A stretch of DNA of 64,000 nucleotides, from positions 1 through 64,000 of the forward strand of contig CAMPDV010001943.1 of NCBI GenBank assembly GCA_946699065.1, in the 5' to 3' direction. The translations under genes were made by a program, and so were the position numbers. Under the pieces are notes generated by a model. The model saw only the letters and a list, made by a program, of their open reading frames with translations. It searched no databases and had not been told where the DNA came from. Source of the stretch: Loxodes magnus (Eukaryota > Ciliophora > Karyorelictea > Loxodida > Loxodidae). This document shows, piece after piece, positions 6,724 to 53,419 of this stretch (positions are counted from its first letter, which is position 1; every line of letters begins with the position of its first letter).

Positions 6724-9165
6724 ATGGAGTAATCTAAGGAAAAGAAATATCTCAAATTCATTGGATAGCGTATCTAATACGGGTAAACCGTGCTTTCTTA
6801 TGTAATAATTCCTGCTGTTTACTTTTATCTTTTAGAGAGCTTAATTTTTTATTCAGACTTTGAATAAATTTTGCTTGCTCTGGCTCGAGTTTTGATTATA
6901 GAAATGATAAGAAACTCGATAAAATATCTTAAGAACAGTAAAATTCCTGCTATTGTTCTCTTTACATATTTCTTAATCAAAACTTTTAAATTCTCGCTCT
7001 AAAATGTTGATGATACTTGGTTTTCCTTTATTTACGTGCTGATCGTACCAATGTCTAACAATTTCTATCTAAAGAATTAGAAGCTTTCACTAATATTCTT
7101 AGCCTTACAAATCTTAGCTAGTCTTTTCCTCTCTGTTTGAACTGGGTTTATTTATAAACTAAATCAAGAACATTTGGTGACTCTCTTCTTTGCCTTTGGA
7201 TTTAGTTACTGCACTATAATTAGTAACTAGAATATTACAAGAGATTTCTTTGAAAAACACTTACTTATTTAGAAATAAGTTAAAACCTTAAAATTCCTAA
7301 CTAATAACTGCAGTACTGGAATTATCATATTCAGCAATAACTAAATTATGTACAGCAACAAGCTACTAGGGAAAATGATTGGCATTCCATAGTTTTACGA
7401 CTTTCTAGAAAGAGCAGAACTTACCTAAAATAGCTAAGTTAAATTTAAGAATTCTCTAGGTCAATACATCACTTCCAGTAGTCAAGAATAGTCAGAAAAT
7501 TTTGTAATTAAATTGGAATAATTTTGGAATAAAGAAGATCCATAAAAAGTGATGTACTTCTAAGTCCAGGCATTAAATACCATCTGAGACAATGAAGAAG
7601 CAGTAATGCTAAATATTAGTAATTTAACTGATTCATATAACGTTGAAAGAAAAAACCTGTCAACTAGGTATAAAACTCTATTTTTAAGAGAGTTTAATCA
7701 TTAAGTGAGACATCCTGCTACTTTAATCATGAGTATTGCCCAACAAATCTAAAGTTTTCTGGCATTTTACATAAATAAAACTACTGAGAGGAAATGTTCT
7801 GAATCTAATTTCTAGACAATTCAATAAACTAAAGAAACTATTTCTGAAGGAGGAAGTTAAAATTCCTTTGGTAATGAAAATTAAACCCTTTTCTTAAGGA
7901 GTACCTCTTAAAGTTAAGTATCTACTTGTAAATCTTTTATTTAAAACTTCAATAAATTGGAAGTCAACTAAAAATTAGCTTAATGATGCAGTTAAAAGGC
8001 GTAAATCATAGATTAAGAGACCTAAAATTTGGTGAATATGACACTTTCCATGACTTAATTCTTATAAGTTGAGAATCCTAAATTAGTATGAGATATTATT
8101 AATGTAAAAAGCTTATTCAAAGAAGCATTTAACATTATATAGTTTCATATTCAAAGTAAAGATATCAAGCTAATATAATTCATAAATTCCGACGTTCCTG
8201 AAGAAATTTCTATTGATAAACAAAAACTAATCTTCATTTTATAAATACTCTTATAAAATGCTTTGAAGTATACTAACTAAGGATCTATAAGTATTGGAAT
8301 CTAAAAGTCCAAAATTCAAGAAGACAAAACCAAAGAGTTTGTAAATTATAAAATAAGTGTCAAGGATAGTGGAATAGGAATTAGCGAGGAAAAAAAGAAA
8401 TGCTTATTTGAACATTTATTCGATAAACAAGAATTCGATTTAGACAAGCCTTAAGGAAGTGGAATGGGATTATATATAGCGTAGAAGATAGCTTATTTAC
8501 TAGGAAACTAAAACATAAAGATAAAATCTGAACTTGGTAAGTATAGCAAATTTTCGTTTAATATCAGTTCTAAAAATATTAAAGATGTAAAATAAGAATA
8601 AATAGTTTTATAGTAAAAATGAAACAGAAAAATTAAAAGAAAATCAAAAACACAATCACAGTTAATTACATCTTCTCAATCGAATATAAGTTAAAGGCAT
8701 GAAAAAGATTCAAATTTAGACAAGTTTAAAAAGAAGGAAGATCCAAAAATTCACAAACAACATTAATGCAATTGTTAATAAGTATTAATAGTAGATGATT
8801 CAGAAATTATAACAATGATCCTTTAAGAGATATTAGAAAGTAAAGGCTACTCGTATATGGCAGCAGTTAATGGATAAGAAGCTTTAAATCTAGTTAACTA
8901 AAGAAGAACAAATGAATGCTGTAGAGAGTTCTAAGTAATAATAATGGATTGCGAAATGCCAGTTTTAGATGGTTGGAAAGCTAAAAAAGCCATAAGAATG
9001 CTAAGCTACTAAGGAGCAATAATTGGACATACAGCTTATGCATATGAATAAGATGTTGAAAGATGTTTTAAAGCAGGAATGAATAATGTGCTATTCAAGC
9101 CTACTCAATCTTCAGCGATCTTACGAGAAATAGAAAAGTACATAATAAGTTAAGAAAATAAATGA
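6724..9165 (+). CDS. Membrane hybrid histidine kinase, copy A
   Basis: Predicted membrane sensor kinase that autophosphorylates on His and passes phosphate to its own receiver Asp. There are 814 codons with TAA/TAG as Gln, from ATG 6724 to TGA 9163-9165. About six hydrophobic segments lie between residues 22 and 166, followed by a PAS-like region (about 185-305). The H-box is FNHQVRHPAT with His326. The ATPase has N-box Asn512 (QNALKYT), G1 at 548-552 (DSGIG) and G2 at 578-582 (GSGMG). The receiver at 687-807 keeps Asp691/692, phospho-acceptor Asp742, Thr770 and Lys792. Five internal TGA codons (139, 288, 421, 456, 633) occur, and 288 and 421 are TGG in other copies. There is no frameshift, and the length equals copy B exactly. 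If UGA is a stop this is a pseudogene; I favour a gene with UGA as Trp. Confidence 0.85.
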
Positions 9166-10410
9166 TAAAGCTAAAATAAATATAAATTTGTTCTGAATAA
9201 GCTATTCTTAATAGTTTATTATTCTCTACAGAATATAATTATATAATAAATCATTTTAGTAAAATCTTAGCTTTATAATTTATTTATATAAATCAGATTA
9301 TTACATGGAAAGCAATGAATTTACATCTATTGGATTTAAGTATACAAGTTAATGAAAATTAAATAAAACAATTTTAGTTAATTATCTTAGATATGGAACT
9401 ATATAATATTGATATTCTACTATATGAATTATATTTATGATCTTCTTTATTTCAGATCTAAATGAATTAGATGTTTATAATTAATAAATGTCTAAATATA
9501 AGAAAAGATTAAGTATGAACAAATAAAATTAGATGAGAATAGATCTTTAAGTTAGTGCATAAGAATAGCTTTAATTCAATTGAAAAGCCTTTATAACTAA
9601 TTAAATTTGATGATCCATAAATAAACATATACTTTCTATATCAAATTATTTTGTCTATTCAGCTATTTCTCCCTTTTCTATTTTAGATATAAACATATAT
9701 CTCAAATAAATCTTTAATAATCATACACTACTTAATTTGAAATGATTGTGATCTATAGCATTCTTTCTATAAATAAAACTTAAATTTATTTTTAAATATT
9801 GGTATAATAAATATTAATATATATTATACCTTATTATTCTTTAATATCCTTATATCTCATTTTAAATATAATTTTTGTATATACGTAATAAATTTACAGC
9901 ATTGAAGATATCACTAAAAGCGAAATTTTATTTATCTATTACAAGCAATCAATATGATATTCTAATACTTTTATTTAGAATAATTGTTACCTTTCTTTTT
10001 ATTATTTTGCTTAAATTATATCTTTTATAGTTATTTAAAGACAAAATAAAATAATTAGACTCACAAAGTATAAGAATGATTACAAGATTAAAAATTATAA
10101 AGCTTTACTTATGAAATTAAATTACTATATTGCTGTAGAAGATAAAACTTATTGCTGTCTTGTTTAGAAAAGCCTATTTATTAATTATTTATTAAGTTTA
10201 AAACTTAAATTATCTAAATATTTCTAAAAGTTTCATACTTTATCACAGACTTTAATTATAAGGGCTTCTATTCTAAATAGAGAAAATATAAAATCATACA
10301 AAATAATCTAAATTTTAGCTAAATTTTTGTATTAAAAGCAAGAGGCTTTTGCTAAGAAAAGTTTTATTATAAGAATATTAAAAATAAATTAGCTAGCTAA
10401 TTTATTTTAA
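9166..10410. other. AT-rich 3' flank of kinase A
   Basis: About 1.2 kb of AT-rich DNA shared with the 3' flanks of kinases B and D, with many indels among the three. I see no gene, RNA or clear terminator. The indel load contrasts with the indel-free kinase reading frame beside it. Confidence 0.6.
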
Positions 10411-10414
10411 CATA

Positions 10415-11150
10415 ATGATGCTATCAAATAAAAAGGGAAATTTCTTCAAAAAATATCTTCCGAAAAGGAAATTACTCAGTCAATCGACAATTAACAAACT
10501 ATAATCAAAGAACTCAAAATATGTAAGAGGAAAATCTAAAATTTTTAAGATACGTGCAAGAGCTTGTAGGTAAAATGTTATACCTAAATTTTTAATATTT
10601 CAGAATAAAATGATTAAAAAAACATTATCAGATAAATGAGAGATAAACAGCTAAAAGCAAACCTCAATAAATTGCGATGCAAAATATATTTCTTTTAAAT
10701 AAATCAAGAAAAGATTTTTTGTATATAGAATCAAAAAATAGTAAGCTTAAATTTAAAAAAAAAGAGAAAAAGTAAACTGATAAAGCAGGATATTTGGACT
10801 TATTTAGATATTTCAGATATAAGAATAAAATAAAGAAGTTTAAAGTTAAGGCAATCTTTTAGTAATTTATACTGCACTAAAAAAGAGATTTTATACAAAA
10901 ATAAAATGTATAGAGGGAGTGAAATTTTGATGGATATGGTATTTGCACAATAAAGAAGGAACTAAAAAATGCTAGGTAGTTAATTTGACTGAAGTTAAAT
11001 ATCTATTATAAATAGATTATATCCATATGAGTAGATAGTTATTTAGGAAAGTGATTGAAGAAGACAGGAAATAAAAGAAAAAATGAAGCAAGTAAAATTA
11101 AAATGTAATGATGAGCCTAATAAAGTTAACTCATTATAATTTTTTTATAA
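10415..11150 (+). CDS. Unrecognised ORF at the end of unit A
   Basis: From ATG 10415 a single frame reads about 240 codons with TAA/TAG as Gln, and with four TGA codons that must be read through. It is Lys-rich, with pieces such as NFFKKYLPKRKLL and LHNKEGTKKCQVVNLTE. It begins at the point where similarity between units A and B ends, so it is not part of the shared unit. It runs into the tail of the SINE at 11.15 kb, which may have replaced its natural end. TGA spacing is no wider than chance would give, so the coding claim is weak. I do not recognise the family. Confidence 0.3.
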
Positions 11151-11565
11151 ATAATAAATAAATATGATTATAGAGCGCGTAGCACCTTGTTGGCGCAGCT
11201 CTTTCAATATTAATATTTAATATTAAAAAAAGTTTTTTCATACTTCTTGTTGTCATTCTATTCTTCCAATGAGTCACATCAATTTCTCCAAATGAGAAAT
11301 ATGCTTATTAAAAATTATTCCTAAATCTTGAAACAAATGCTCCAGTCTCCTTGAACAAGATCCAAATAAGAATTAGTAATTAAGCCTTTGCCAAGCCCGC
11401 CAGTCAAACGTTCATTCTGCTAACGAGAACCATAGGGCAAGTTAAATTTATCTCTACTGAGCTTGTCAACCCTTGTAGTGGCATCTAGTGCGAGATTACT
11501 CAAAATGCAGTATACACTGGACCAGATTACCAACTAGTTCACCAGACAGCGGCCGACAGCCATAT
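11150..11565 (-). mobile_element. SINE-like element S1, copy 1
   Basis: It is locally richer in GC than its surroundings and matches 42.54-42.99 kb along its whole length. It starts next to an AATA-rich tract with an imperfect hairpin (AGAGCGCG to GCAGCTCT, about 11173-11205) that is also found at 38.26 kb. At 11489-11521 it carries two small stem-loops that are perfect in the 42.9 kb copy but have mismatches here, as expected for an older insertion. If the AATA tract is the retroposition tail, the element is on the minus strand. No convincing polymerase III A and B boxes were found, so the tRNA or other RNA origin of the body is unknown. Confidence 0.6.
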
Positions 11566-12149
11566 TTATATATAATAATATTTATACAAGATTAATACTC
11601 CCATTATATAAATTTAGCTAAATTAGGAAAGCTTTCTACATTAATGAAGGAGTAATAGTAAGCTTGGCGATTTGCTTTGTAGATCATGTTTTAATTATGT
11701 TTAATATGCTACTACTAAATTTAATCATTCAATATTAAAATGAACTTTTATATGGTTCTTTAATATCATAAAGATTTAAATTATATTCATTAGGTATTTA
11801 TAAGCTACATATATTAAAATGCTTGAAATTTAAGTCTAAAAAATAATTTTAGATAAACTTCAATCAATAGAAACTTAAAAATTAAGCTAGTTAATGTAGA
11901 ATCAAGAATTATTTATAAAAAGATATAAAATTGAAAAATGGCTGTCTAAGTAGTAAATTTGAAATTGAACAAAAACATAAAAATGAGCAATAAGTAAATA
12001 AAATAACTAAACATTTGCTATAGCTACAACAGACAGAATGCAAAAATAATTTGCATATACTAATATATAAATATTCCAAATCTAAGTAATTTAGATAAAT
12101 TATCATAATTTATTTTATTTCAAATCAAAGTAAATTAAACTAAGGAAAG

Positions 12150-12345: not shown

Positions 12346-12699
12346 TTAACATTTAATCATCTATTTATCTATTTATTCATTCTTGGATTAAAAACCTCAA
12401 AACCTTAAAAATAAAGAATGGAATCCTTAAGACTTAGAAGTAAAAAAATTGGCAATGCTATTTATTAGTTGAGAATTAGCTATAAATTCATGTGAATAAA
12501 GGAAAAGATATTACTATTAAAATATTAAGCTAAGTAGTTTGATAAGGATAACAATTTTCTAAACACAAATATTGTATATTTCATGCAATAGTTTGATAAT
12601 CAATTGTATCAGCAATTTTCTAATATAAGTTAAACCATTTAATTAAATTAAGTCTGCAAAAAAAATAATGGAAAATCAGATATCACTATTCATATTTTC

Positions 12700-14540
12700 T
12701 TATTTCTTTTTAAACAGCAGAACTTTCGAAAAGCTTTGAAAACACTCTTTTGATACCAGCTTTCGAGCATCTTTCAAAATCTTAATCATAGGAAGAAACT
12801 GTATATCCAATTAAGCTCCTTGATGTCCCATTTACCTCAATTCTTATGCTGCTTTTCAACTATCTAAAGCTGACATCTCGCAGTCCATTTCTATTACTTG
12901 AAACTATTTACACAATTCGATAAGCAACTTAATTTGCTTAATGCTTATAAATTTTTCAAAAGAAGAAGTTAAAATCAAATTTGAGTTTGAATTTATTTGG
13001 GAAATAGTAAGAAGTTTCCTGACTCCTTTTGTCTTATATTTAATTTTTGATTACTCTTTTAATATTCTTAGATCTTATGTTAAAAGAGAATTTATTATAC
13101 TTATTTAGATCATATTTTATTTTTATATTTTGATTTCCTAATAGCAAAGCTATTTTCTATGATATGTACAGTTCCATTCCGCTTCCTTTAACATTGTTTA
13201 AATATATTTCTTGTCTATCAAATAGTTGTTCAAATAAATATTTTTATCTTTCTTTGCTTATCTGACTCCACTATCCTTTACATAGATTTTATAATTTATG
13301 AATTTAGTTTTTTGATCTTACTGTTTTATTTTTTTAATTTCAAGATAAATAAATTCTTAGTCAGTATATTTCAAGAATTTGATAGAAGAATCTTAAGTAT
13401 GAAGAGAATCTTTTACTTATCAATAGAATTTCATCAGAAACGTCTGATTTTTTGAATTATAGTAACTTGAATGACTTACTTCTTTAACATTAAGGAGATC
13501 ATATACTAGCTTAGAATGTTGATTTTATAAGAACTAAGTTAAGGAGAATTTCATATTAATTAAGTTTTTAGTTTTTAGCTCAAATATTCCCATGTTATAG
13601 TTGCATTGCTTGATTATTTTTTCTCAATTTACTTAATTTTAGGATTCCTTTCTCTTTGTTTATGTTTTGATCAGCTATTTAATTAAGACTAAAAGTAAGA
13701 TTTTTCTAGTAAATACAGATGCTAGCTTACATTTACTTATTATTATAGAGTTTTCTTTATAGGAATCTTTAAGAGATTTATTATTAATCTCACTATCAAT
13801 TTTGATATCCTTATTTTAAAATAAGTAGCTTTGGATTTTTTAAACAGCATTTGTTATTAAGTAGAGGAATGTTTCACTTAATGGTTAAATTATCGCAAAA
13901 ACTGAGTTTTGCACCTGTTTGAAAGATATTATCGTTCTGCATTATAGGCCTCAGTTAGATAATTAATATTAAGCATTGCTTCTTTTTCATTATATCTTGT
14001 TCTGAGTAAATTAAATAATTATAGAATTGAGAGATTTCTATCATTTTTTAATAAGCTTACTGCTGCACATTATCTAGTTACTATTATAAATGATTATTCC
14101 AGTGTTACTGTGTTCACTTAGAAATTAAGAAGTTTTTATTTCCTTCTATATTAGCAAATGCTTTTCAAACAAATCTTTCGTAAATTACTCGTCACTTATT
14201 ATCGTAAAAATGCGTAATCCCAAAGCCTATAAAGAGTATTATAAATGCTCTTAGTTAAGCTAGTGGATTAACCCAGTCCATAATGAAAGTCCAAGACTAG
14301 TTAAGATTTGTAGAGTAAGAAAAAAGAGTGAGACTTTTAAGTTCTTAAGTCATAAATTATTGAACATAGGGACAAGCAGAACTAAAATAAAAGAAAGTCA
14401 GGTAGAGTCAAAATCATAAATGTAGTGCTTAAAAGCTTTAGACATTGATATAAATAAAAGACGTAGGAAGGCCCTTACTATATTCAAAAATTTTTCCAAG
14501 AAACTCTGTCGACTTTTAAAAAATAATTCGAATATAAATA
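12700..14540 (-). pseudogene. Hybrid histidine kinase, copy E (decayed)
   Basis: An antisense relative of kinases A-D with several frame breaks. Recognisable parts, reading from 14.5 kb down, are the membrane segment with SWKN (a TGG at 14496-14498 where B, C and D have TGA), the H-box FNHQVKHSST near 13.88 kb, the G1 region YVKDSGV near 13.29 kb, and the second half of the receiver (MDCEMSALDS) near 12.88 kb. The first half of the receiver, including the Asp pair, is missing. In the receiver a TGA (12856-12858) stands where copies A-D have the TGG of LDGWKA. It is the most diverged of the five copies. I see no long shared flanks, so it may stem from an older duplication. Confidence 0.75.
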
Positions 14541-16799: not shown

Positions 16800-18175
16800 T
16801 CAGATATAATTACTCGAGAATCCCATACTTATTATTCCATCTCTATGGTATTTTGCGAGTATTTTTAAAGCAATTAATTTAAAAATCATTATTAAGTATT
16901 ATTCTTTAAATTAACTTAATTACTCAAGAAGTTAAATTAAATATTTTAGCAAGCTATCTTTAGCATAGATGCTTTAGAGAGATGAATAAGCCTTTATAAT
17001 TGCTATTAGAGTTTAGGAAAATTAGAAAAAGGTTAAGAGCAAATTTCTAAGTTTATTAGTGATAATTAATTAATATAAAGGATTCTTTTTATAAGCCAAT
17101 TTATCTGAAAGTGGATTTTAAAAACTTGATCAAAAAAATCAAAATTTAAACTAGATTCTTAGCAAAAAAAGCATTCTAAATTAAATTAATTATACCTTAA
17201 ATTCTTTTTGATTTCGCAATTATAATTATATTAAAACTATAAATCTAAATTTTAAGATTCTTAATACTGCCTAGATAAAGCAATACATATTAAATGATTA
17301 AATCTAAACTTTAATACTTAAAAGAGAAAGATTCAAAAAACCTAAGAATTTGCTTATATAAATAAAATAAATAAAGTCGAAAATTATAAAATTCCTTATT
17401 ATAGTAAAACATAGAAGATATCTTTATTAATAAATATTTAAGTTTTTTCCTTGATAAATTTCTTTTTATTTAGATAACTAAACATTTTTATTTTTATACC
17501 TTATTTAAAATAATTTAGCTCAGTTATTCTTTATAAGTACAAAATTACTTATTTTAAATTTGTATTAGTGATTTATTTTAATTTTCTTTCATAATTTCCT
17601 CTTTTACTTAGATTTATTTTGCTAGTTATATTTTAGTTTTAGCATAGATTTTTTAATCTTTGTCATTCCTATAAATAAGATTAGTTCCATCTTAAAAATT
17701 CATAATTTTTTTAATTTTAATATTTAAATCTTTGATTGATTTTATCAGCTTTTGCACACTATTTTATTTTATGAAATTTCTAATTTAGTTAAATTCTATA
17801 AGTCATTAAATTCCTTTATTAGAGGCAATAAAGCTTATTCAATTAATAAATTTTAATAAATTTATAATTAATCTGTATAAAAGGAGACGATAGATAATGA
17901 ATCCATCAATAGCAAATTTAAAAAATATTCAAATTTTTAATTTTCATTGTTTTTAATATTTTTCGTTCAATCTTACTTAACTAAATTTTCCTGCTTGCTT
18001 AGTAATTTCCATTTGTGATTTGTCTCTTTTAAATTTTTCCCTAAAATTTCTAAATTTTTTCAATCAATTTAATTAGATTTATTTATTATATCATCAGTTT
18101 AATAGACTTTTATACTTGCTAACTATTACTTTTTTATTTAAACTTTTCTTATCAAATTTCTAATTATACTTAAGA
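16800..18175. other. AT-rich region, no gene seen
   Basis: About 1.4 kb with long T-rich runs and nothing recognisable. It lies directly upstream of the WD40 fragment and contains no extra WD40 repeats that I can see. Confidence 0.5.
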
Positions 18176-18181
18176 AAGACC

Positions 18182-18600
18182 ATGAGTGGTCACACAAATT
18201 ATATATCATCTGTGGCTAATTCAAGCGATTCAGAGTTCATTGTATCAGGAAGTTTATATAAGACGGTGAGACTATGGAACTTCAAGACAGGTACCGTTAA
18301 GACTATTTTTGTCACACAAGTTATTTTGCATCTTTGGCTATATCCAGTGATTCAAGATTTATCTCATCGGAAAGTTATGATAAGACATTGGGACTATGGT
18401 ACGTCAATCAAGGTACCATTAAAGCCATGAGTGGTCACAATTTCTGTATATGCTGTGGCATTATCCAGTGATTCAGATTTAATCGTATCGGGTAGTTAAG
18501 ATACGACGGTGAGACTATGGGACGTCAAGAAAGGTACCTGTAAGACCATGAGTGATTTCCCAAGTTTACCAAGGTTTGTGGTTATATCCAGTGATAAAAG
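18182..18600 (+). pseudogene. WD40-repeat gene fragment
   Basis: Four degenerate copies of a unit of about 122-126 bases (about 41 residues, the usual WD40 length) lie head to tail. The best read is SGH, then AVALSSDS, IVSGSQDTTVRLWDVK and GTCKTM. WD40 repeats build beta-propellers used for protein binding. The units fall in different frames, so small indels have broken the gene; the first open piece runs 18182-18430. A TAA stands for Gln in GSQD, independent support for the ciliate code. The units resemble each other closely, as in recently amplified repeat arrays. No other domain is visible on either side. Confidence 0.75.
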
Positions 18601-22978: not shown

Positions 22979-23639
22979 ATGAGTAATGAAGGCTAATTAT
23001 TCTTAATAACTCTTGCAATCCATCTTTTCCATTATATTTCAATGTGACCAGGTTTAAATTACTTATTAACTAATAATTAGACTTCTATCATTTAATAGCC
23101 TATTTAAATTTCATCCATATAAAGATATCAAAATAAGTTTTTTGATTATTTTATTGTATATGAATGGCAGTTTTTTTATAACTATTGTCATTATTTTGGT
23201 TTTTTTAGTTTGAAGTAAAATTTAGAATAGATCTACATTGAAAATTATGAGAAAGCTTTCCTGTAAAGTTTCTCCTATTAACTGAAGTATCTTTGATACT
23301 TATCATTTTTATGCTTTAAATAACTTATTATTGTACATATGGGAGAATTAATAATCTAGACAATAAAATTGAGATTTCTGTGAGTTTTTTAGATTTGGAT
23401 TGCTCTTAGAAATGTCTTTAAAATTTACATATTTAGATTATAATATTAGCTAGTATAGTTCTTGTACTTTATATTCCTCTAATAACATTAATACGCCCAC
23501 ATTGATAGGAATTACAAAGTGAGATATTGCATATAAAGCAAAAATCCTAGCTTATAGTGCTAAATAGTTGTATATAGATATCAGCAGCAATAACTAATAG
23601 AATATTAAAATATTTTATTCTTTAGTGCGTGCTATCACT

Positions 23640-24350
23640 TTTACTGTCGTTTTCTTTTCATGTCTTACTTATTTTACTCAAAAGCCCTTTAGATTATTCC
23701 AAAATTAACTGGATTCAGTTTATAGTATTTATTACTTATTTTCTATGTTGCAGCTGTAATAAATTTAGCAATTAACGCAGAGGAAATATTAGTACTTAGA
23801 TAGTCTTAGTTTAGTTATAGCATTAATTAACTTAATAGGAGTCATAAGGATGTTTAAATAAAAACATTGCTAAAGTATATTAAGCCTGACTTATAGAACT
23901 TATTCAGATTCGCTTTTAAGACAAGAGCTAATCCTAATTTGCTTATTAACCATCTAAAAACTTAAAATCACAGAATTTCAATATCAAGGAAATAACTCAT
24001 AGCCAACATTGAAAGTTCTAAGGAAAATTATCTATAATTATTTAAGTCTCAAAGTCTATCTTAAAAAGGCTAAGCATAATTCCATCCTTATGAGTATTAA
24101 AGGTTCACAAGTTTGTTTAGAAATCGAGAAAAATTTGGAAGCTAGTGAGTTAATTGAAAATGTATAAAGTAAAACGTAAAATTGTACTACTAACACAAAA
24201 GTAAATTACCTTTAAAAAACGAAAAAGTATTTGATAATTGTAAGCAATTTACATTCAGTTAATGAAAAATTAAGCAAATTGAAAGATAAAGTAATTCTAA
24301 ATTAATTGATGAAAGTTAGCTGCTAGCTAAAACTCAAGTATGATACATGA
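23640..24350 (+). pseudogene. Membrane-protein remnant, unit B
   Basis: Counterpart of the remnant at about 0.5-1.4 kb. The stretch 'tatgttgcagctgtaat' and the following 'gacttatagaacttatt' are nearly the same in both. Small length differences break the frame here, and the TGA found in A is GGA here. There is no recognised family. Confidence 0.4.
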
Positions 24351-24599
24351 ATTAAATAATATAGATCAAAGCAAAGACGAATATTACTTTGGAAGACATC
24401 ACAGTTTCATCTAACTTTCTCTAAATCTTAATTCACAAAACAATTACTAGAAACATTTTACATCCTTAACTCTTTATCAACTTTAATTACTTACTATTTT
24501 TTAATTAAAGCAAGCTACCTAATTTAAATGTATATTCATAAATTTACTAAGAGTATTTATTTTAATTTAACTAAATCTAGATAGAAATGCTTAAAAATT

Positions 24600-27076: not shown

Positions 27077-29518
27077 ATGAAGTAGCCTAAGGAAAATTAA
27101 AATCTAAATTTCATTGGATAGCGTATCCAAAATGAGTAAACCGTGCTTTCTTATGTGATAACTCCTGTTGCTTATTTTTATCTTTTTTAGAGCTTAATTT
27201 TTTATTCAAACTTTGAATAATTTTTGCTGTCTCTTGGACGAGTTTTGATTATAGAAACTTTAAGAAATTCGTGAAAATATCTTTAGAACAGTAAAATTCC
27301 TGCGATTGTTCTTTTTACGTATTTCATGATCAAGACTTTTAAATTCTCGCTCTAGGATGTAGAAAATACTTGGCTTTCTTTTATTTACGTGCTACTCGTT
27401 CCAATGTTTAACAATTTTTACCTGAAGAATTAGAAGCTTTCACTTATACTCTTAACCCTACAAATCTTAACCAGTCTTTTCCTCTCTGCTCGAACTGGGT
27501 TTATTTATAAACTTACTCAAGAACATTTGGTGACTCTATTCTTTGCTTTTGGATTTAGTTACTGCACTATAATTAGTAACTAAAATATTACGAGAGACTT
27601 TTTTGAAAAGCACTTACTAATTTAGAAATAAGCTGAAACCTTAAAATTCCTAACTAATAACTGCAGTACTGGGATCATCATATTCAACAATAACCAAATT
27701 ATGTACAATAACAAGCTACTAGGGAAAATGATTGACATATCGTATTTTTATGACTTTCTAGAAAGAGCAGAACTTACCTAAAATAGCTAAATTAAATTTA
27801 AGAAGTCTTTAGATGAATATATCACTTCCAGTAGTCAAGAATAGTCAGAAAATTTAGTTATTAAAGTGGAATAACTTTGGAATAAAGAAGATACATAAAA
27901 AGTGATGTACTTCTAAGTCCAGGCATTAAATACCATCTGAGACAATGAAGAAGCAGTAATGTTAAATATTAGTAATTTAACTGAATCATGAAACGCAGAA
28001 AGACAAATTCTATCAACAAGGTATAAAACTCTATTTTTAAGAGAGTTTAATCATTAAGTGAGACATCCTGCTACCCTAATCATGAGCATTACCAAATAAG
28101 TCTAAAATTGTATGGTAGCCTATATAAATAAAAATACTGAAAAGAAAATTTCTCTGTAGAATTCCAGATTATTTCAATAAAACGAAGAAACAAATTCTGA
28201 AAAAGAAAGTTAAAATTCATTTAGTAATGAAAATTAACCTCTAGTTTATGCAAGTAATTCTTAAAATATTCTATTAACTTGTAAAACTTTTATAGAAAGC
28301 TTTAATTAACTTGAAGGAAATTAAAAACTAGCTTCATGGTGTTGCTAAAAAGCGTAAATCATTGAATAAGAGACATAAAATTTGATAAATACGACATTGT
28401 CTATGACTTAATTTTTACAAGTTGAGAATCCTAAGATAGTATATGATATTATTAATGTCAAAAGCTTATATGAAGAAGCATTTAAAATTATATAATTTCA
28501 TATTCAAAGTAAAGATATCAAGCTAATTTAATTCATAAAGTCCAATGTTCCTGAAAAGATTTCTACCGATAAATAAAAAATAATCTTCATTTTATAAATA
28601 TTTTTATAAAATGCTTTGAAGTATACTAACTAAGGATCTATATGTCTTGGAATTTAAAAATCAAAAATTCAAGACGAATAAAACGAAGAGTTCGTAAATT
28701 ATAAAATCTGAGTAAAAGATAGTGGAATAGGAATTAGCGAGGAAAAATAGAAATGCTTATTTGAACACTTATTTGATAGGCAAGAAATCGATTTAGACAA
28801 GCCATAAGGAAGTGGAATGGGATTGTTTATAGCTTAGAAGATAGCTTATCTACTAGGAAATCAAAATATAAAAATAAAATCGGAGTTAAATAAGTATAGC
28901 AAATTTACATTCAATATCAAATCAAAAAACATTAAAAGTGTGAAATAAGAGTAAATACTTTAATAGCAAACATTAAACAGAAAAATTAAAATAAAATCTA
29001 AAACACAATCACATTTAATTACAAATCCTAAAAAGAATATAAGTCAAAGACAAGAAAAAGTTTTAAATTTAGACTAATTTATAAAGAACAAAACTCCAAA
29101 AAGCCATAAGCAACACTCATGTACATGCTAATAAGTATTAATAGTAGATGATTCAGAAATCATAAGAATGATCCTATAAGAAATATTAGAAAGTAAAAAT
29201 TACTCGTTTATGACAGCAGTTAATGGGCAAGAAGCTTTAAGTCTTGTTAATTAAAGAAAAACAAATAATTGTTGCAGAGAGTTCAAAGTAATAATAATGG
29301 ATTGCGAAATGCCAGTTTTAGATGGTTGGAAAGCTACAAAAGTCTTAAGAATGTTAAGTTATCAAGGTGCGATAATCGGACATACAGCTTATGCATATGA
29401 AAAAGATGTTGAAAGGTGTTTCTAAGCAGGAATGAATAACGTATTATTAAAGCCTACTCAATCTTCAGCAATCTTACGAGAAATAGAAAAGTACATAGTA
29501 AGTTAAGAAAATTAATGA
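27077..29518 (+). CDS. Membrane hybrid histidine kinase, copy B
   Basis: It has 814 codons from ATG 27077 to TGA 29516-29518, the same length as copy A with no indel between them. Layout is as in A: about six hydrophobic segments, PAS-like region, H-box FNHQVRHPAT, ATPase with QNALKYT, DSGIG and GSGMG, and a receiver with VDDSE, MDCEMP and LLKPTQ. Internal TGA codons stand at 66 (27272), 288 (27938), 305 and 545 (28709). Codon 66 is TGG in copy E, 288 is TGG in copy C, 305 is Tyr in A, C and D, and 545 is Tyr in E. Codon 421, TGA in A and D, is TGG here (28337-28339). With UGA as Trp the gene looks intact. Confidence 0.85.
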
Positions 29519-38236: not shown

Positions 38237-38728
38237 AATAAATAAATAAATTTGATTATAGAGCGCGTAGCACTCTCGTTGGTGCGCAGCTCTTTAAAAA
38301 AATGTTTCATACTGACAAGAATGTTTGTTACTGATAAAATTATCAGATACTGATAAAAGTGTTCAATACTGATATAATTTTAGAATACTCGTAATCTTTA
38401 ATACTTGCTGGAGGTCCAAGGACATGGCAGGATTGTGTCTCATTGCATCACCAAAGCAGAGGACGACATGTGTCAATTATGGGTACTTAAATTTCCCACC
38501 TCTGATGAAGCTCACAATATTATTTCTTTTTCGTTCCAGAATTAAAAATAAACGAAGCCAAGCCAAGCCAGTGTCGAAGGTCTAAGAATCTTATGTCTCA
38601 AGGTCAAACCAAAGCAGAGGAAGACATAAAGTCGATTATGGGTATTTAACTTCCCCAACCTCCGATGAAGATGACCTTGTTGTTCACCTTCAAACAACTA
38701 TGGCGGTTTTAAAAAATATATAATAAAA
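38237..38728 (-). mobile_element. SINE-like element S1, copy 2, inserted in kinase C
   Basis: The insert carries the S1 hairpin (AGAGCGCG to GCAGCTCT, 38260-38293, with a GCAC/GTGC inner stem) next to an AATA tract, but a different body from the copies at 11.2 and 42.5 kb. AATAAA occurs at both edges (38237 and 38722) and looks like a target-site duplication. The body has a 19-base tandem stretch (atactgataaaa..., about 38312-38395) and a dimeric repeat also found at 63.1 kb. The different body behind a common hairpin suggests SINEs that share a 3' tail borrowed from one partner LINE. Confidence 0.65.
38400..38700 (+). repeat. Dimeric GC-richer repeat, copy 1
   Basis: Two monomers of about 100 bases, each with 'accaaagcagaggasgacat' followed by 'attatgggta' and 'cctcygatgaag', start near 38.40 and 38.57 kb with a linker between them. 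The same dimer occurs at 63.15-63.42 kb. It lies inside the SINE that interrupts kinase C. Confidence 0.6.
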
Positions 38729-40879
38729 TATGGTTTTCATTTATCCTTATAATGGTTGCTCCTATTTTCAATAATTTATACATAAAGAACTATATCCTCT
38801 CACTTATATTTATAACTATCCAAATCTTAACTAGCATTGGACTTTCCTTTTGTACTGGTTTCATTTATAAGCTTGATTAAGATCAAATTATAACTCTCTT
38901 TATAGTTTTTGGAATATATTACTGCACGACCATAAGCAACTAGTAATTCACTAAAGTCTTATTTGAGAAATACCTTCTAACTTAGAAATAATTTCAGACA
39001 TTTGAGTTTTTGACGAAACACTGCAACACTGGAATTATAATCTTCAATAATAGCTAAATTATGTACAACAACAAGTTGCTTCGCTAAATGATTGACATCT
39101 CCTTCTTTTACGATTTCCTTGATAAAGCTGAATTTACTCAGACCAACAAAATTGGATTTAAAGTCTCTTTAAATTAATACATTTCTTCTAGAAATGCTGA
39201 GTAATCTGAAATCTATGTGGTTAAGGTACAGAAATTCTGAAGTTAGACGGATAATTAAAAAATGATGTATTTCTAGGTTTAAGCTCTTAATACTTAGTGG
39301 GATAATGAGAAGCTGTCATGCTTACCATTAATAACTTGACAGATTCCTATAACGCAGAAAAATAAAATCCCTCAAATCAATACAAAACTCTATTTTTGAG
39401 AGAATTTAACCATTAGGTAAGACATCCAGCCACCTTAGCAATGAACATATCTTAGTAAATCTAAAAATATTTGTCTAAGTTCAAAGATAAAGAATCTGAC
39501 TCTGACTCTGAGAATTATAAATCATTCTTCAATACAATTTCTTTTTAGGAAATTTCTGAAAGTAACTTTTAGAAGCAAAGCAGATCCTTTAAACATCAAG
39601 AAAATCCAAGGATCCTTCTAAGTAACATCGAGTCTTGTTGTGCACTCGCTACAGAAGTAAAATTTAAACTTAAGAACTATAATGCTAAGAGAACTGTCAA
39701 GTAATCGCTAAATGGTGTAATAAAAAGGCGTAAATTATAGAGTAAGAAACCCAAAACTTAATAAATATGACTCTCTCTTTGACTTAGTTCTTACAAAGAT
39801 AAAAGCCAAAGTTAGTATATGACATAATTAATATCTAAAGCTTCCTTACAGAAGCCTTTAGAATTATTAAATTTCATATCCAGAATAAACCTATCAAGCT
39901 ACTATAATTCATTAATTTCGATGTTCTGAAGAAATCTCAACGGATAAATAAAAAGTTCTCTTTATTTTGCAGATTCTTCTGTAAAATGCTCTGAAATATA
40001 CCAATCAAGGATTTATTTGTCTTGGTATAAAAAAATCCAAAAAGCAGAATCTAGGGGAAGATGAGTTAATTAGCTATAAAATCTGAGTAAAGAACAGTGG
40101 AGTAGGAATAAGCGAAGAAAAGCAGAAGCATTTATTCGAGCAGTTATTTGATAGACAAGAAATAGATTTAGATTCCCCTTAAGGAAATGGAATGGGATTA
40201 TAAATAGCCTAGAAAATTTCTTTGATCCTTGGTAATCAAATTATGAAAATAAAATCTGAGGTAAATAAGTTCAGCAAATTTTCCTTCATAATAAGATCAA
40301 AAAATGTAAAAAAAGGTGATTCAAGAGTAAATATTTTAATAATAGCCATAGAATATAAGGATTATGAAGCAAACTAAAACTATTAAATTACTTCTAACTC
40401 CTTCCTAAATGATGGATAATTCAAGTTCACTTGAAATTCCAAACTTTGACAGTTTGGAATTAAAACAGAGCTAACTGAATCGATTGATGAGTGAATGCAC
40501 ATGCGAATAAATTTTATTAGTAGATGACTCAGAAATAATAAGGATGATTTTGTCTGAATTACTAATCAATAATAGCTATTCGTTCAAAACGGCAAAAAAT
40601 GGACAAGAGGCTTTGTAGATTGTATTCAAAGGAGAAGAAATTCATCCTGCAAAGAATTCTAAATTATAATAATGGATTGCGAAATGCCAGTACTAGATGG
40701 TTGGAAAGCTACCAAAGCAATTAGATAAATGGGCTATTAAGGAGCTATAGTAGGGTGCACTGCTTACTCTTTTGAATAAGATGTATAGAGATGTTTACAA
40801 GCAGGAATGAATAATGTTTTGTTCAAGCCCTCTCAAAGTTCAACTATCTTACAAGAAATAAGAAAGTACGAGCTTTGAA

Positions 40880-42540
40880 TATTTAACTTTTGTTTTAAAG
40901 TTATTCATACAATTTATATATAAATTTACTCAAATTTTCTACTTATTCTTTATAGCTTCACTTAAATTCACCATACTAATACTTTTTAAAAATCAAGCTT
41001 TTATTTAAAATTAATACCAAAACTGAAAGCTTTAACTTAATGTTTGGATATATCAGTTAAATAAATCTTTTAAGTGAAAAATAGCTGATTTTTATAGATA
41101 AATATAGCATAAATAACATTCATTTGACTACTTTTAGTTCTTAAGAAAACTGGTTTTGAGAGTCTTCAATTCTAATTTCTATTTTCTTTCTTATTTAGCT
41201 TGGTTATATATTTTAGCAATATAACTAAAATAAAAGGTAATAAATGAAAGGAATTTATTATAAAGCTAGTATTAAGATGAGTAAAATTAATCTGCGTAAG
41301 AGATTAGAAAGCAAGCATAGATAAAACTACGAAATATTAAAATCCTACAGCATCTAATATCATAAATTAAAGGAAATTAAGGAAATTAATATTTAGTTCT
41401 TTAAGCTTGATTGAACATTTGTTTTAACTAAGATAAAAAGAAAAGGTGCGCTTAACAAACGCTAATATTTATTAACTAGATTGGATCCACTTAATCCATT
41501 ATCCTAGAAGTCTATATAGGGAGATATAATATATCTATTAATAAAAGCAAAGATAGAGCTTATAATATCAAATGGCTTATAAATTAAATTAATAAAACAA
41601 TAAATGTAAAGTTTTAATTAAATTCTGGTTTATATAGTTCCTACTTTGCTTAAGGGAACACCTTTGTAAATTGAAGAAATTTAAAAATATGCAAATCAAA
41701 GAAAAGAAAATTAAGTTTATTTTGGTATTAGAACAATAACTCTTGTAATAAGAAGCATGAAGAAGTAATCTTACTTTCTACAGACAAAAGCTTTGTAGCA
41801 TAATATTTATTCATATAGATAAAAAAGAATAGTTAAGTATTTGATTTATTTTAGAAGTTTATTTAATTATTGTTATAAAATTATTAATAATATTAATGAT
41901 AGATAGTCAAACTAAGATATTCTAAAAAACTCTATAAATTTGTAGGTTTTGGTTTGTAATAGGTTTGATTTTCATATCAAGGATAGAATGTAATAAATAA
42001 AAATAAGAAAAGTATAAGTAAATTTATATAGCCAGTCGTAGTTGATGATAAGGCTAAAGGTAAGTTCAGTTTCTATAATTATATAGTAGATTCTAATCAC
42101 TTGCTGTTTTACTAAAAATTATTTAACTATTTCAGTTATTTTTCAAGGTTAAGAGGTTAATGAGGCAATAAAAATTATTTCTATCAGTTAAATTTAAAAC
42201 TTAGGAAAATTAGAAAATTAGAAAATGATAGTATAAACAGACTAATATCTTTATAATATATTTTAAAATTTAAGAAAGAAACTAAGGTTATACAGTATAA
42301 TCATAGTTACCTTATTAATAGTTTTAAGACATGACATAATTAAGTTTTGAGCATTGACACTAAAATTTGTTTAAATCATAAGAGTTAATTATAATCATAC
42401 CTAGAGGTTTAAATATAGCTGTTTTATATTTCTTTATTAATTTTATTTATTCAATTAAATAGATAGCAATGACTATTTCTATATAAAGTTAAGGAAGTTA
42501 AGATTAGAAATAAATATTTTAAGAAGCTAGGTTTATATTA
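40880..42540. other. AT-rich region, no gene seen
   Basis: About 1.7 kb between kinase C and the next SINE. Nothing recognisable on either strand. Confidence 0.5.
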
Positions 42541-42985
42541 TAAATAAATAAATAAATAAATAAATAAAAATGATTATAGAGCGTGTAACACCTCATTGGC
42601 GTGTAGCTCTTTCAATATTAATATTTAATATTAAGAAAAATGTTCTCATGTTTCTTGCTAAAATTCTAGAGGTCCGATGAGTCATGTCAGCTTCTCCAAA
42701 TGGGGAATCTTCTTATTAAAATATATTCTTAAATCTTGAGTCAAATGCTTCAGTCTTCTTGAATAAGGTCAAAATAAGAATTAGTTATTAAGCTGGTAAT
42801 TAGAAGGCCCATCAGTCAAACTTTCATACTGCTAGAGAGAACCCTCGGGGTAAATTAGGTATGTCTCAACGGAGCTTATCCACTCTTCCCCGTGGTGGCA
42901 TCTAGTGCGAGATTACTCGCAATGCAGTATACACTGCACCAGATTACCTACTAATTTGTCTGACGCGGCCGACATCCATTTTATA
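42541..42985 (-). mobile_element. SINE-like element S1, copy 3
   Basis: The best preserved S1 copy. An (AAAT)n tract of about 30 bases leads into the terminal hairpin (AGAGCGTG to GTAGCTCT, from about 42577). The body matches 11.2-11.56 kb throughout. At 42906-42938 two perfect stem-loops with 6-bp stems and 4-base loops stand one base apart (TGCGAG/CTCGCA and TGCAGT/ACTGCA). The perfect stems and the intact microsatellite suggest a younger insertion than copy 1. I found no polymerase III promoter boxes that fit well. Confidence 0.65.
42906..42938. ncRNA. Paired stem-loops within SINE S1
   Basis: TGCGAG-ATTA-CTCGCA (42906-42921) is followed after one base by TGCAGT-ATAC-ACTGCA (42923-42938). 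Both stems are perfect on paper. The same place in the 11.5 kb copy keeps the layout but has mismatches in each stem. It is probably a structured part of the SINE RNA; its role is unknown. Confidence 0.45.
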
Positions 42986-42989
42986 TATA

Positions 42990-44150
42990 TAATAATAGAT
43001 TTAAAGCTTTCATATTAAAATTAATTAAAGAAGGAAATCTATTAAGTTGATCAACTAACTTTTTTATAGGGTTATATGTTGATTCTCAAACATTTTTTTC
43101 TCCTCAATTGTAGAATTGCTAAATAAGGTCTGGCTTCAAAACCAAAGGAATAGCTTGAGTAGAATTAGCTATTTTATTTTCATTTAAAGATAAAATAGAT
43201 CTAAATCATCCTAAGTACATTTCTATTGTTTTTGCTTAGATGAGAAAGCTTTCAACGATATTTATAGCTACTCTTAGACATTTTAAATAAAAGAAAAAGA
43301 AAATAATTAGATATTAGTCTTAAAACTTTAATTATATCCATATTCTAGAATAAAATCCATTTGATAATCTAAGGTAATTTTAAATTTATAACTGAGAAAG
43401 TTTCTCTAAAATAGCATCTATAATTGTTGTGCTTACTATAAAATAAGTTTATTATGTTTTTTGTATGATTTAATAATAAAGGATAGAGATTTAATTCTAA
43501 ATACCTCACTTATAATATAGTGAGAAGTAGTTTAATATAAACATCATTTTAGCTATATAACGTTATAATTTAATATCTAGTGGATCATCTTATATCATCC
43601 AACCAAATAAATGCTTTTTAATAATTTTTTAGTCTCAAAATTAGAGTACAAGGAGATTGACTAATAACAAATTTGAAGATAAAGTGTAAAAAACCTTGTT
43701 TGTTCTAGTTTTTCTTTAATAGAAATATATTTAAAATTTGCTACTATTTTTAGATCATTTAAATTTGATTTAGTCTTATACTTTGAAAGCAAATAAAGAC
43801 AATCTTAAAATATAGATACAACGATAATAAGCATCACATAAGATAATTTAAGTTGATTACTAGAATTATCATTTCTTATATCTTAAAATTAAGATTAAGT
43901 CTAAATAAGGATATATTTTTAATTTTCTTTAGTAGTTAAATATGATATAAATATTTAATATTTTTACTAACTTAAATTTCTTCCTTTAAGTTCAGCATTT
44001 ACTAAAAGTCTTTCAATTAATAAAAACATTGTAACGAGATTTTGGACTGAAGAAGTGCCTTTCGTTTTAAGTTTCTTTTCTGAATTTTAAATTAATTTAC
44101 TACTGATTTTATTCTAAATTAATATCTAATAAAAATTTAAAATCTAAATT
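42990..44150. other. AT-rich region, no gene seen
   Basis: About 1.2 kb between a SINE and a zinc-knuckle element, without recognisable features. Confidence 0.5.
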
Positions 44151-48849: not shown

Positions 48850-50100
48850 AATTTTCTTTAATTTTATTCTAGGTATTAATAAAAGTTTTAATATCTAATT
48901 TAGTAAATATTTTAGTATGATTGAATATTTTATTTCTATTCTATTTATTAGATAGCACTTGTATAAAGTTAAAAACCCAATGCAAATTTGGAGTAACTAA
49001 CATGAATCTATCTTTTAAAAATATTTAAATCATTTAGTTTTGTATTTTTGCTAAAAGGTTTGCAATATTAATAACGGTATTTTACACATAAACTATTTAC
49101 TATATTTGACTCTTTATGATTATGAAATAGATAATAATTAAACTATTTTTGTTATTAATTCTTCAGTAATCATAAGAGTTGCGCTAGTTTAGTTTTGCTA
49201 AACATTTATTAAAGACTTTAGCTATTACATAGGGATATAACTAAACATAGCATAATCTAAGCAAATATTAATTTTTAAAAGCTTAAAGTTTGGATATATT
49301 AAACTCTTAACTAAAAGGTATAAGTATCACTCATTTAAGAAATAAAGATGGCTAATAATAGAAAGCTTTGATTTGCTTTTAAATTAATTTTAGGTTTGTA
49401 TTGAAGTTATTTTAATCTAGCATTTTAAATAAAGAATTATCAAAGCTATTAGTCATTTAATGTTTTAAATTTAAATTGAAAACATCTTAAATCAAACATT
49501 CTTTAAAACTTTAATGAAGGATATATTAAAAAACTCAAAACTGCTAGCTTCATTGCAATAACTTAAAATGATTTATTCATGAATAATTTAGCTTAATTAA
49601 CTAAGATTAAAACCGATTATCTGATGATGAATAAATGATATTAGCATTTAATTTTTTTAAGCTATAAAAGTCTACTAAATTTTAAATGATATCCTTTTTA
49701 TAATATCTTAGAAATACTTATATTATTTGTATTTATTACTTATTTATAGTCAAGCTATTTTATATGATTTTTTAATGCTTTAGTATAAAAGTCTAGTATG
49801 ATTCAATTATTTTTCATATGATATTATATTTATTTTCTCTGCTTGTTGAATAAAAGTTCATATATACATTTATATTGTAAAGTAATTCTAAAGCTAAATA
49901 CTCTTAGAATATTTTGATTATAAAGCTTTCAAAAGTTAATAAAAAAGATGCTAGATTTGACAAGATTATAATAATTTATTTTTATAAATAAGGGATTTTT
50001 AATAAGTTTGAGATTTACTATTATTCTTATATTATATGACTATAGTTTCTATCTTAAAATAATCATAAAAAAGTTAGATAAACAATGCTATAAAAAGGCA
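48850..50100. other. AT-rich region, no gene seen
   Basis: This lies between the glycosyltransferase and the part that clearly aligns to the 3' flanks of kinases A and B. The outer border of unit D is somewhere here, but I could not place it by eye. Confidence 0.45.
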
Positions 50101-50989
50101 AGAAGCCATCTCTTTTAAATAATAAAAGCTATATTGCTATATTCAAATTTTCAAAAGTTAAAGAAAGCCTTTATTTTAATTAATTTTTAACTGCTGAAAA
50201 TTTATACTGCTTAGGCTACTAATTATTATTAAAATTAGTTAGATGGATATTAAGATGTATTATGGTATTATATCCATAAATTTTTTGAATTTTGATTTAA
50301 AGCAAATTTTTTTTATTAACTAAATGTTTATTTAAAAGGAAGAATGATAGAAATCTTAACCAATTGAAATAAGTAGTAGTAAGTTTATTAAAGCTTTGTT
50401 TGAAATGTATGTTTAATTTAAATCTAAAGTCGAAAATCCAGAAAAAGCTGAATAGCTTAAAAATTTTAATTAGAAAGCTTTATATTATTAATATCTGCTC
50501 TAAATGGATATTTTCAAATGAGTAATGATTATTCACATACACAAACTTATTCTTTATATTCTTTCTAAAATTTATTCATTTATACTTAATCTTATCTTGC
50601 AGCTATTAATTAGATATTTATTTATTTCAAGCATCTTTATCATTTAGTCTCTTTTAAAGTAGAAATATATTTAAAATCAAATAAAGTAAATCATAATTAA
50701 TTTATTCAAAAAGCAGAAATATAAATTTATTATTAAGGGCTATGTCAAAGATTTCTAATTAACGATGTTTTATTTAATTTTAACGAGTCATATACTTAAA
50801 TTCAATGGATCTAATCTCAGTTATTTACCTATTTAGTGATCTGGTTTATAGAATAAATTAAAAGCTAATATTTTTACCTAAAATGATTTATAATAGAGTT
50901 ATATTTATAAAGAATTAATAAACAATCAGAATAGCTGATGAAATACCCTTTAATTATTTTATTTATTTAAACATTTATTTTTAATTTTT

Positions 50990-53419
50990 TTAATTTGCTA
51001 TGTACTTTTCTATTTCTCGTAAGATTACAGAAGATTGAGTAGGCTTGAATAGCACATTATTCATGCCTGCTTTCAAGCATCTTTCAACATCTTATTCATA
51101 TGCATAAGCTGTATATCCAATTATTGCTCCTTTATAGCTTAACTTTCTTATGGCTTTTGTAGCTTTCCAACCATCTAAAACTGGCATTTCACAATCCATT
51201 ATTATTACTTAGAACTCTCTACAGCATTCATTTGTTCTTCTTTAGTCAACTAGACTTAAAGCTTCTTGTCCATTAACTGCGGCCATATACGAGTAACCTT
51301 TACTTTCTAATATTTCTTACAGAATCATTCTTATGATTTCTGAATCATCTACTATTAATACTTTTTAGCACATGCATGAATGTCGCTTATGGCTTCTTGG
51401 AGTTTCGTTCTTTAAAAATTAGTCAAAGATTGAATCTTTTTAATTTTTTTAACTACTTTTTATTTTAGAAGCTGTAATTAACCGTGATTGAGTTTTAGAA
51501 ATTTTTTTAATTCTTCTATCTCTTTTTTACTATTAAAATATTTGCTCTTATTCTACATCTTTAATGTTTTTAGAACTGATATTAAATGAAAATTTGCTAT
51601 ACTTGCCTGACTAAGATTTTATTTTTATGTTTTGGTTTCCTAGGAGAAGAGCTATCTTCTACGCTATAAACAGTCCCATTCCACTTCCTTATGGCTTGTC
51701 TAAATCGATTTCCTATCTATCAAATAAGTGTTCAAATAAGCATTTCTATTTTTCCTCACTAATTCCTATTCCACTATCTTTTACTCAGATTTTATAATTT
51801 ACGAACTCTTCGTTTTACTCGTCTTAAATTTTAGACTTTTAAATTCCAAGAGTTATAGATCCTTAGTTAGTATACTTCAAAGCATTTTATAAGAGTATTT
51901 ATAAAATGAAGATTAGTTTTTGTTTGTCAGTAGAAATTTTTTCAGGAACATTGGACTTTATGGATTAAATTAGCTTGATATCTTTACTTTGAATATGAAA
52001 TTATATAATATTAAATGCTTCTTCGAATAAGCTTTTTACATTAATGATATCATAAACTAATCTAGGGCTCTCAATTTATAAGAATTAAGTCATAAAGAGT
52101 GTCATATTTATCAAATTTTAAGTTTCTTAGTCTATAATTTACGCTTTTTAGCTGCATCATAAAGCTAATTTTTAGTTGACTTCATATTTATTAAAGCTTT
52201 CTATAAAAGTTTAGCAATTGAATAGAACATTTTAAGAATTACTCATATAAACTAGAGGTTAATTTTCATTACTAAGAAAATTGTAACTTTCTTTTTCAGA
52301 ATTTATTTCTTCATTATGTTGAAATATTCTGGAATTCTATTGAGAAATTTTGTTATCAGCACTTTTATTTATGTAGGCTACCATACAATTTTAGATTTGT
52401 TGGGCAATGTTCATGATTAGGGTAACAGGATGTCTCACTTAATGATTAAACTCTCTTAAAAACAGAGTCTTATACCTGGCTGACAGATTTTACCTTTCAG
52501 TGTTATAAGACTCAGTTAGATTATTAATATTTAGCATTACTGCCTCCTAACTGCTTCAGGTGGTATTTATAGCCTAGATTTAGAAGTACTTAATTTTTTT
52601 AGAGTCTTATTCATTCCAAAATTGCTATACCTTAACTACGAAATTTTCTGACTATTCTTGACTTCTAGAAGTGATATATTATTCTAAAGATTTCTTAAAT
52701 TTAACTTATCTACTTTAGGTAAATTCAGCTCTTTCTAGAAACTCCTAAAACTATTAGATGTCAATCATTTTTCCTAATATTTTGTTGCTGTACATAATTT
52801 AATTACTGTTGAATATGATAATTCCAGTACTGCAATTATTAGTTAGAAATTTTAAGGTTTTAACTTATTTCTAAGTCAGTAAGTGCTTTTCGAAAAATTT
52901 GATCGTAATGTTCTAGTTACTAATTATAGTAAAATAACTAAATCCAAAAGCAAAGAGAAGAGTCACTAAATGTTCTTGATTTAGTTTCTAAATGAACCCA
53001 GTTTATACAGAGAGGATAAGACTGGCTAAGATTTGTAAGGTTAAGAATATAAGAGAAAGCTTCTAATTCTTCAGGTAAAAATTGTTAAACATTGGAACGA
53101 GTAGCACGTAAATAAAAGAAAGCCACGTATTGTCTACATCCTAGAGCGAGAATTTAAAAGTCTTGATCATGAAATATATAAAGAGAACAACTGCAGGAAT
53201 TTTACTGTTCTAAAGATACTTTCATGAGTTTCTTATAATTTCCATTATCAAAACTTAACCAAGAGACAGCAAAAATTAATCAAAGTCGGAATAAAAAACT
53301 AAGCTCTAAAAAAGATAAAAGTAAATAACAGGAGTTATTACATAATAAAGCACGGTTTACTCGTTTTTTATGCATTATTCTATAAAATTTAGATATGATT
53401 TTCCCTTTGGTTACTCCAT
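50990..53419 (-). CDS. Membrane hybrid histidine kinase, copy D
   Basis: The cleanest copy. From ATG at 53419 down to TAA at 50990-50992 there are 810 codons, in exact register with A and B through the final KYI. It reads MEQPKGKSYLNF, hydrophobic segments, a PAS-like region, H-box FNHQVRHPVT, then an ATPase with QNALKYT, DSGIG and GSGMG, and a receiver with VDDSE, MDCEMPVLDGW and FKPTQ. Internal TGA occurs only at codons 66, 288, 421 and 545. The first three are TGG in copy E, in copy C, and in B and C respectively; the fourth is Tyr in E. The 3' end has several in-frame TAA codons in a row and no nearby TGA, so TAA may end translation here. Confidence 0.85.

Follow-up and report, generated by a model that had tools for sequence, protein, structure and literature searches.

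Hybrid histidine kinase genes in a 64,000-nucleotide stretch of Loxodes magnus DNA (the window; contig C1943, positions 1 to 64,000) contain in-frame TGA codons, which raises the question of how UGA is read inside these genes and which codon ends them. The macronuclear (MAC) assembly of this species is described as 706 Mbp, with NCBI table 27 as its code (UAR as Gln, UGA as Trp or stop), a GC content of 33.5% in coding sequences and a modal intron length of 17 bp (PMC11441545). The genome searched here comprised 705,730,643 bases in 7843 contigs. The window, which is probably nuclear DNA of this karyorelict, is AT-rich (GC 0.17-0.30 in 2-kb bins). Read with table 11, it contained no ORF of at least 150 aa. 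ARAGORN found no tRNA in it, and Rfam gave no match at the gathering score. A search against a phage collection likewise returned nothing.

Self-comparison of the window revealed three duplicates of 8-11 kb (A, B and D) and two shorter ones (C and E). Together they would hold three intact and two broken hybrid histidine kinases, members of a large family. The limits of the duplicate blocks were set by us, and those of copies C and E are approximate.

1-11000, plus strand: duplicate block A, from self-comparison
6724..9150, plus strand: copy A, hybrid histidine kinase coding sequence, codons 1-809; aligns gap-free with B, D and most genome copies
7138, 7585, 7984, 8089 and 8620: in-frame TGA codons 139, 288, 421, 456 and 633 of copy A
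9151..9153, plus strand: codon 810 of copy A, an in-frame TAA right after the receiver domain
9163-9165, plus strand: codon 814 of copy A, an in-frame TGA
12690..14500, minus strand: copy E, a frameshifted and deleted kinase
23090-31400, plus strand: duplicate block B, from self-comparison
27077..29503, plus strand: copy B, hybrid histidine kinase coding sequence, codons 1-809, with in-frame TGA at codons 66, 288, 305 and 545
29504..29518, plus strand: gene end of copy B, with TAA at codon 810 and TGA at codon 814
38500..40880, plus strand: copy C, a frameshifted kinase that needs several frames; 63.6% identity to D, with indels
49500-58900, minus strand: duplicate block D, from self-comparison
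50993..53419, minus strand: copy D, hybrid histidine kinase coding sequence, codons 1-809, with HATPase_c and Response_reg domains
53224-53222, 52558, 52159 and 51787: in-frame TGA codons 66, 288, 421 and 545 of copy D
50990..50992, minus strand: codon 810 of copy D, a TAA proposed as the actual stop; the next in-frame TGA comes only at codon 931

The frame of copy D matched HATPase_c (E 2e-15) and Response_reg (E 3.1e-24) and was similar to solved histidine kinases and receiver domains; the kinases of the window are hybrid histidine kinases. In a protein search 1705 matches passed, and of the 120 listed a single one bore a ciliate name, Blepharisma stoltei, at 34% identity and 79% coverage. 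A codon-usage scan pointed to further parts of the window that look coding; in Pfam these gave only WD40-type matches.

The genome was then searched for further kinases. There were 170 candidates, and with 40 of them scored 41 matching stretches were reported, so the family has at least this size. All reported matches outside the window's own copies amounted to 37 genome places, which together with A-E made 42 loci. A single open frame over about 815 codons, with a gap of at most one codon, was found at 32 of them (A, B, D and 29 others). Ten frameshifted, gapped or partial loci were excluded from the codon counts (C, E, L023, L027, L028, L034, L038, L043, L044 and L045). At 3% nucleotide distance the 32 intact copies fell into 17 clusters, some of which are possibly alleles or assembly duplicates.

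If the copies were decaying duplicates, TGA could have arisen from TGG (and from CGA or TAA) by single transitions, and UGA would still be a stop as in Tetrahymena-type codes. The step from TGG to TGA is indeed one transition, and C, E and several other genome copies are frameshifted. However, dN/dS had a median of 0.27 (range 0.18-0.41; 136 pairs of the 17 cluster representatives), and the coding sequences of A, B and D contained no indels in 2426 aligned nt despite 334-375 substitutions per pair. The flanks of the same copies showed 22-50 indels in each of six comparisons, or 0.08-0.11 per substitution, and at these ratios decay would predict about 25-40 coding indels per pair. Coding mismatches piled up in one codon position in most, but not all, 250-column blocks. 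Copies A, B and D are not decaying, and their four to five in-frame TGAs each are thus sense codons. We dropped the pseudogene reading for these three on the open frame, dN/dS and the zero indels, and retained it for C and E. For the family, with 32 of 42 loci open, it is extremely improbable, also in view of the kinase and actin codons described below, and a Tetrahymena-type code in which only UAR is reassigned was rejected.

The intact kinases carried 4-6 TGAs each in codons 1-812 (160 in total). Over columns 1-815 of the 32 copies we counted 174 TGA and 94 TGG codons; 14 of these TGAs, at columns 814-815, are end-of-gene candidates. Column 288 was TGA in all 32 copies, which speaks against decay. 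Column 99 was TGG in 23 copies and TGA in nine, with nothing else, and column 421 was TGA in 20, TGG in five, TAA in four and TTA in three. With the tree rooted at its midpoint, one parsimony solution had TGA as the ancestral state at columns 66, 139, 288, 421 and 545; it placed three independent changes from TGG to TGA at column 99 and two changes from TGA to TGG at column 421. Some TGAs face other residues: columns 15, 21, 305, 456 and 633 have TGA opposite mainly Gln, Tyr or Arg codons, and at columns 66, 139 and 545 some copies have a codon for Ile, Arg, Gln or Ser in place of TGA.

A sequence-only reading of the window had proposed UGA as Trp from TGA/TGG exchanges among A-E. Re-reading the alignment confirmed TGA in A, B and D and TGG in C at codon 288 (E is partly deleted there), TGA in A and D and TGG in B and C at codon 421 (E has CAA), and TGG in A-D and TGA in E at the receiver Trp, which is codon 751. 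At codon 66, TGA in B and D and TGG in E were found as described, but C is ambiguous owing to a 4-nt insertion, and A has ATA. The TGAs listed as facing non-Trp residues (A 139, 456 and 633; B 305) are present, but the one at column 139 is no oddity of A, since TGA is the majority state there (25 of 32 intact copies). Because C and E are frameshifted, their TGG and TGA states are weak evidence; the stronger source is the 32 intact copies. The reading had also argued that random decay does not predict repeated TGA/TGG exchange. Decay is excluded, but this reasoning was incomplete, as TGG to TGA is among the few transitions that create TGA; it is the intact frame that excludes decay.

TGA was also found inside conserved non-kinase genes. 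Among nine internal TGAs in three actins and one aminotransferase, six lay on conserved Trp and three on other residues. The actin on C15 had TGA at Trp79 and Trp340 (residue numbers here and below follow what we take to be the actin numbering) and two more in a divergent loop opposite other residues. In the actin on C17, compared by eye, the one TGA was at Trp79, and the actin on C64 had two, at Trp79 and Trp86. A kynurenine-aminotransferase-like gene (L046) had one TGA at a conserved Trp and one opposite Ser. The sequence-only reading had set two outcomes as evidence against itself, conserved genes free of in-frame TGA and no excess of Trp opposite TGA; neither was seen among the few genes tested. 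Its claim that UAA and UAG encode Gln agrees with the kinases, where many of the 64 Gln columns (Gln codons in at least 13 of 17 representatives) mix TAA, TAG, CAA and CAG; a TAA was also present at an actin Gln site.

The TGAs opposite non-Trp residues, in kinases and other genes, may be ordinary replacements. The columns in which TGA stands opposite codons for Gln, Tyr, Arg, Ile or Ser would also suit a reading of UGA as a sense codon for an amino acid other than Trp, such as Cys, Arg, Gln or selenocysteine. Against this stand column 99, occupied solely by TGG or TGA (23 and nine copies), and the TGAs at Trp79, Trp86 and Trp340 of actin and at the aminotransferase Trp. We give this reading very little credence. 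The intact kinase frames, together with TGA at conserved Trp of actin and aminotransferase, bear out the proposal of UGA as Trp.

The sequence-only reading had suggested searching for a tRNA-Trp with a UCA anticodon or a shortened anticodon stem. A tRNA-Trp pattern of anticodon and T arms, with CCA or UCA permitted, matched 124 genome places, compared with none in the reversed sequence used as control. All 100 listed of these 124 places had CCA; none was a tRNA-Trp(UCA). They formed two arrays, on C67 (48 of the 100 listed, period about 187 bp) and on C148 (52 of the 100 listed, period mostly 241 bp). In the sampled places ARAGORN gave a tRNA-Trp(CCA) with four anticodon-stem pairs, in agreement with the suggested shortened stem. 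The unpaired outermost stem position, presumably 27-43, was A.C in the C67 array and U.C in the C148 array. We used the ARAGORN structure because free folding failed to yield the cloverleaf and its stability did not exceed that of shuffled sequences (z -0.54). A separate UCA-loop pattern had 40 matches compared with 30 in its control, and ARAGORN saw no tRNA in six sampled places, which also argues against decoding as another residue. Two of these six resemble broken tRNA-Trp derivatives.

A 4-bp tRNA-Trp(CCA) has already been reported for Loxodes, and tRNAs with a 4-bp anticodon stem are described as raising UGA readthrough (PMC13092985, PMC12005148). The literature matches listed contained nothing on point about arrays of tRNA genes in ciliates, Loxodes included. 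The likely decoder of UGA would be this tRNA-Trp, with a normal CCA anticodon, a 4-bp stem and an arrangement in tandem arrays.

The data show that UGA is a sense codon here, that it aligns with Trp where this residue is conserved, and that the genome contains the tRNA. We are highly confident in the overall reading, in which UAA and UAG would be read as Gln, internal UGA as Trp via the tRNA-Trp(CCA) with a 4-bp stem, and UGA near the mRNA 3' end as stop. The last element would follow the published rule of context-dependent termination. The finding that UGA encodes Trp is true but already known for karyorelicts, which the sequence-only reading had rightly mentioned: the window follows the published karyorelict code and adds independent comparative support to it.

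We then analyzed gene ends. In histone-fold genes the first candidate stop was UGA in 26 of 31 and TAA in two; in the other three it was not reached in the fetched stretch. In actin-family genes it was UGA in 16 of 20 cases, at least two of these (L058 and L068) from copies matched in pieces, and TAA in two; L060, a copy matched in pieces, had TAA, and L059 was ambiguous. The counts for these two families are not independent, because several genes are near-identical or paralogous. They support a role of UGA as stop. UAG was the end of none of the kinase, actin-family and histone-fold genes examined.

The kinases showed a more complex picture. Codon 810 was TAA in 14 of 17 representatives. Of the 32 copies, 14 had the first in-frame TGA after it at 814-815 and six at 819-824. 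The other 12 intact kinases, D included, had no TGA before codon 841, so that the 30 codons from the protein end on are free of it; they fall into eight of the 17 clusters. Two of them, L039 and L040, had TAA at codon 812. The uniformity of TAA at codon 810 was rejected as proof of a stop: TAA is equally the only codon in many Gln columns, which makes the feature non-diagnostic. In two TGA-less groups we compared 18 pairs over the 165 nt that follow codon 810, a stretch that extends beyond the first TGA of L018, at codon 841. Fifteen of these pairs had indels, each of 1-2 bases, and the same copies align gap-free to D before codon 810. Paralogues in other families gave similar indications. The H3 variant L075 has TGA exactly at the position where L074 and L077 have TAA; in L074 a TGA follows five codons after the TAA, and L077 was read for 44 codons without one. 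In two actin-related genes the C-terminus is followed by TAA, and after this TAA there is no TGA for 22 codons in L056 and none in the 38 codons read in L057.

UAA thus appears to end 12 of the 32 intact kinases, two actin-related genes and one or two H3 variants. From these alignments we consider it rather probable that functional Loxodes genes use UAA as a second stop, dependent on context, that whole kinase subfamilies without a nearby UGA rely on it, and that TGA and TAA interchange as stops at one homologous position in H3 variants. Seah et al. 2022 reportedly regarded UAA as a possible stop in a small fraction of karyorelict transcripts. The idea itself has therefore probably been raised before, but the evidence from paralogues may be new. 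In L. magnus UAA, unlike UAG, is described as depleted over the roughly 20 codons before stops (PMC11441545), and Karyorelictea are listed among the lineages with a potential dual meaning of all three codons (PMC11687900).

The simpler view, that UGA is the only stop, is stated for the L. magnus genome (PMC11441545), and in the karyorelict Parduczia UGA was at the expected stop in all transcripts inspected (PMC4967479). The D-type kinases would then continue for another 31 to about 300 codons before reaching a UGA, with the intervening TAAs read as Gln, as UAA is at many places within the same genes; the non-diagnostic TAA at codon 810 is compatible with this. Against it speak the indels of 1-2 bases that separate kinase copies after a gap-free stretch, the H3 variant with TGA at the exact place of its paralogues' TAA, and the two actin-related genes. 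We consider UGA as the sole stop rather unlikely. If UAA terminates, gene models built on UGA as the only stop would be over-extended, and the question of stop versus sense would extend to a codon that makes up about 5% of residues in these kinases (1421 TAA among 25,888 codons). Paralogue families with adjacent UGA and UAA ends would make this question directly testable.

Compared with known codes, the reading agrees with karyorelict table 27 (Parduczia, Loxodes) in UAA and UAG as Gln and in UGA as Trp inside genes and stop at their ends, but differs in that some gene ends seem to be UAA. Condylostoma magnum (table 28) likewise has sense meanings for all three codons (UAR Gln, UGA Trp), and some of its transcripts are described with UAA as the sole possible stop (PMC4967479). 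Here, in contrast, no UAG end was among those examined, and the stops would be UGA and probably UAA. Blastocrithidia nonstop also reads UGA with a tRNA-Trp(CCA) with a 4-bp anticodon stem (PMC13092985), and UAA doubles as stop there (PMC12153298); however, its lineage is unrelated and its UAR codons are Glu, not Gln.

Candidates for the release factor eRF1 were also inspected. A PF03463 match on contig C2 (L046) was first assumed to be eRF1 and then dropped; we take it to be pelota/Dom34, which it reads like. The eRF1 genes are likely L047 and L048, both on C196. Both carry the motifs AQNIKS and FLCENTF, at sites where human eRF1 presumably has ASNIKS and YLCDNKF.

No in-frame TGA lies near the end of the intact kinase copies D (in the window), L017, L018, L026, L030-L032, L035-L037, L039 and L040 (loci from the genome, G000). 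UAA looks like the stop of these kinases, including D, where it occupies window positions 50990-50992 on the minus strand. The coding regions of L035 and D are 12.9% apart, whereas the following 165 nt diverge by only 6.1%, a mosaic pattern that suggests gene conversion.

The tRNA-Trp pattern had 124 matches in the genome. Among the 100 matches listed were two tandem arrays of tRNA-Trp(CCA) genes, which differ from each other in the anticodon-stem mismatch (4-bp stem). The arrays and two apparent tRNA-Trp derivatives were located as follows:

G000:C67:482321-491201, tRNA-Trp(CCA) tandem array L100
G000:C148:155462-169423, tRNA-Trp(CCA) tandem array L112
G000:C454, apparent tRNA-Trp derivative L108, tandem repeats of ~850 bp
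G000:C140, apparent tRNA-Trp derivative L109, tandem repeats of ~850 bp

In both L108 and L109 the anticodon arm is shortened and a TCA triplet is present. No tRNA was recognised at either locus, and both are apparently broken tRNA-Trp derivatives.

The eRF1 motif is normally ASNIKS. Two eRF1-like genes, L047 and L048 (both on G000:C196), read AQNIKS at this position and contain no in-frame TGA in the frame read. Actin gave 43 full-length genomic matches with near-equal scores (450-460 bits) on G000:C266, C711, C707, C437 and other contigs. Many of them share contigs, with a spacing of ~17-83 kb on C266.

Two further features were recorded in the window:

11147-11580 and 42552-42997, two copies of a ~440-nt repeat (80% identity)
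18173-18589, plus strand, WD40 repeats (E 4.4e-16)

The repeat copy at 11147-11580 had zero Pfam matches in the three plus-strand frames.
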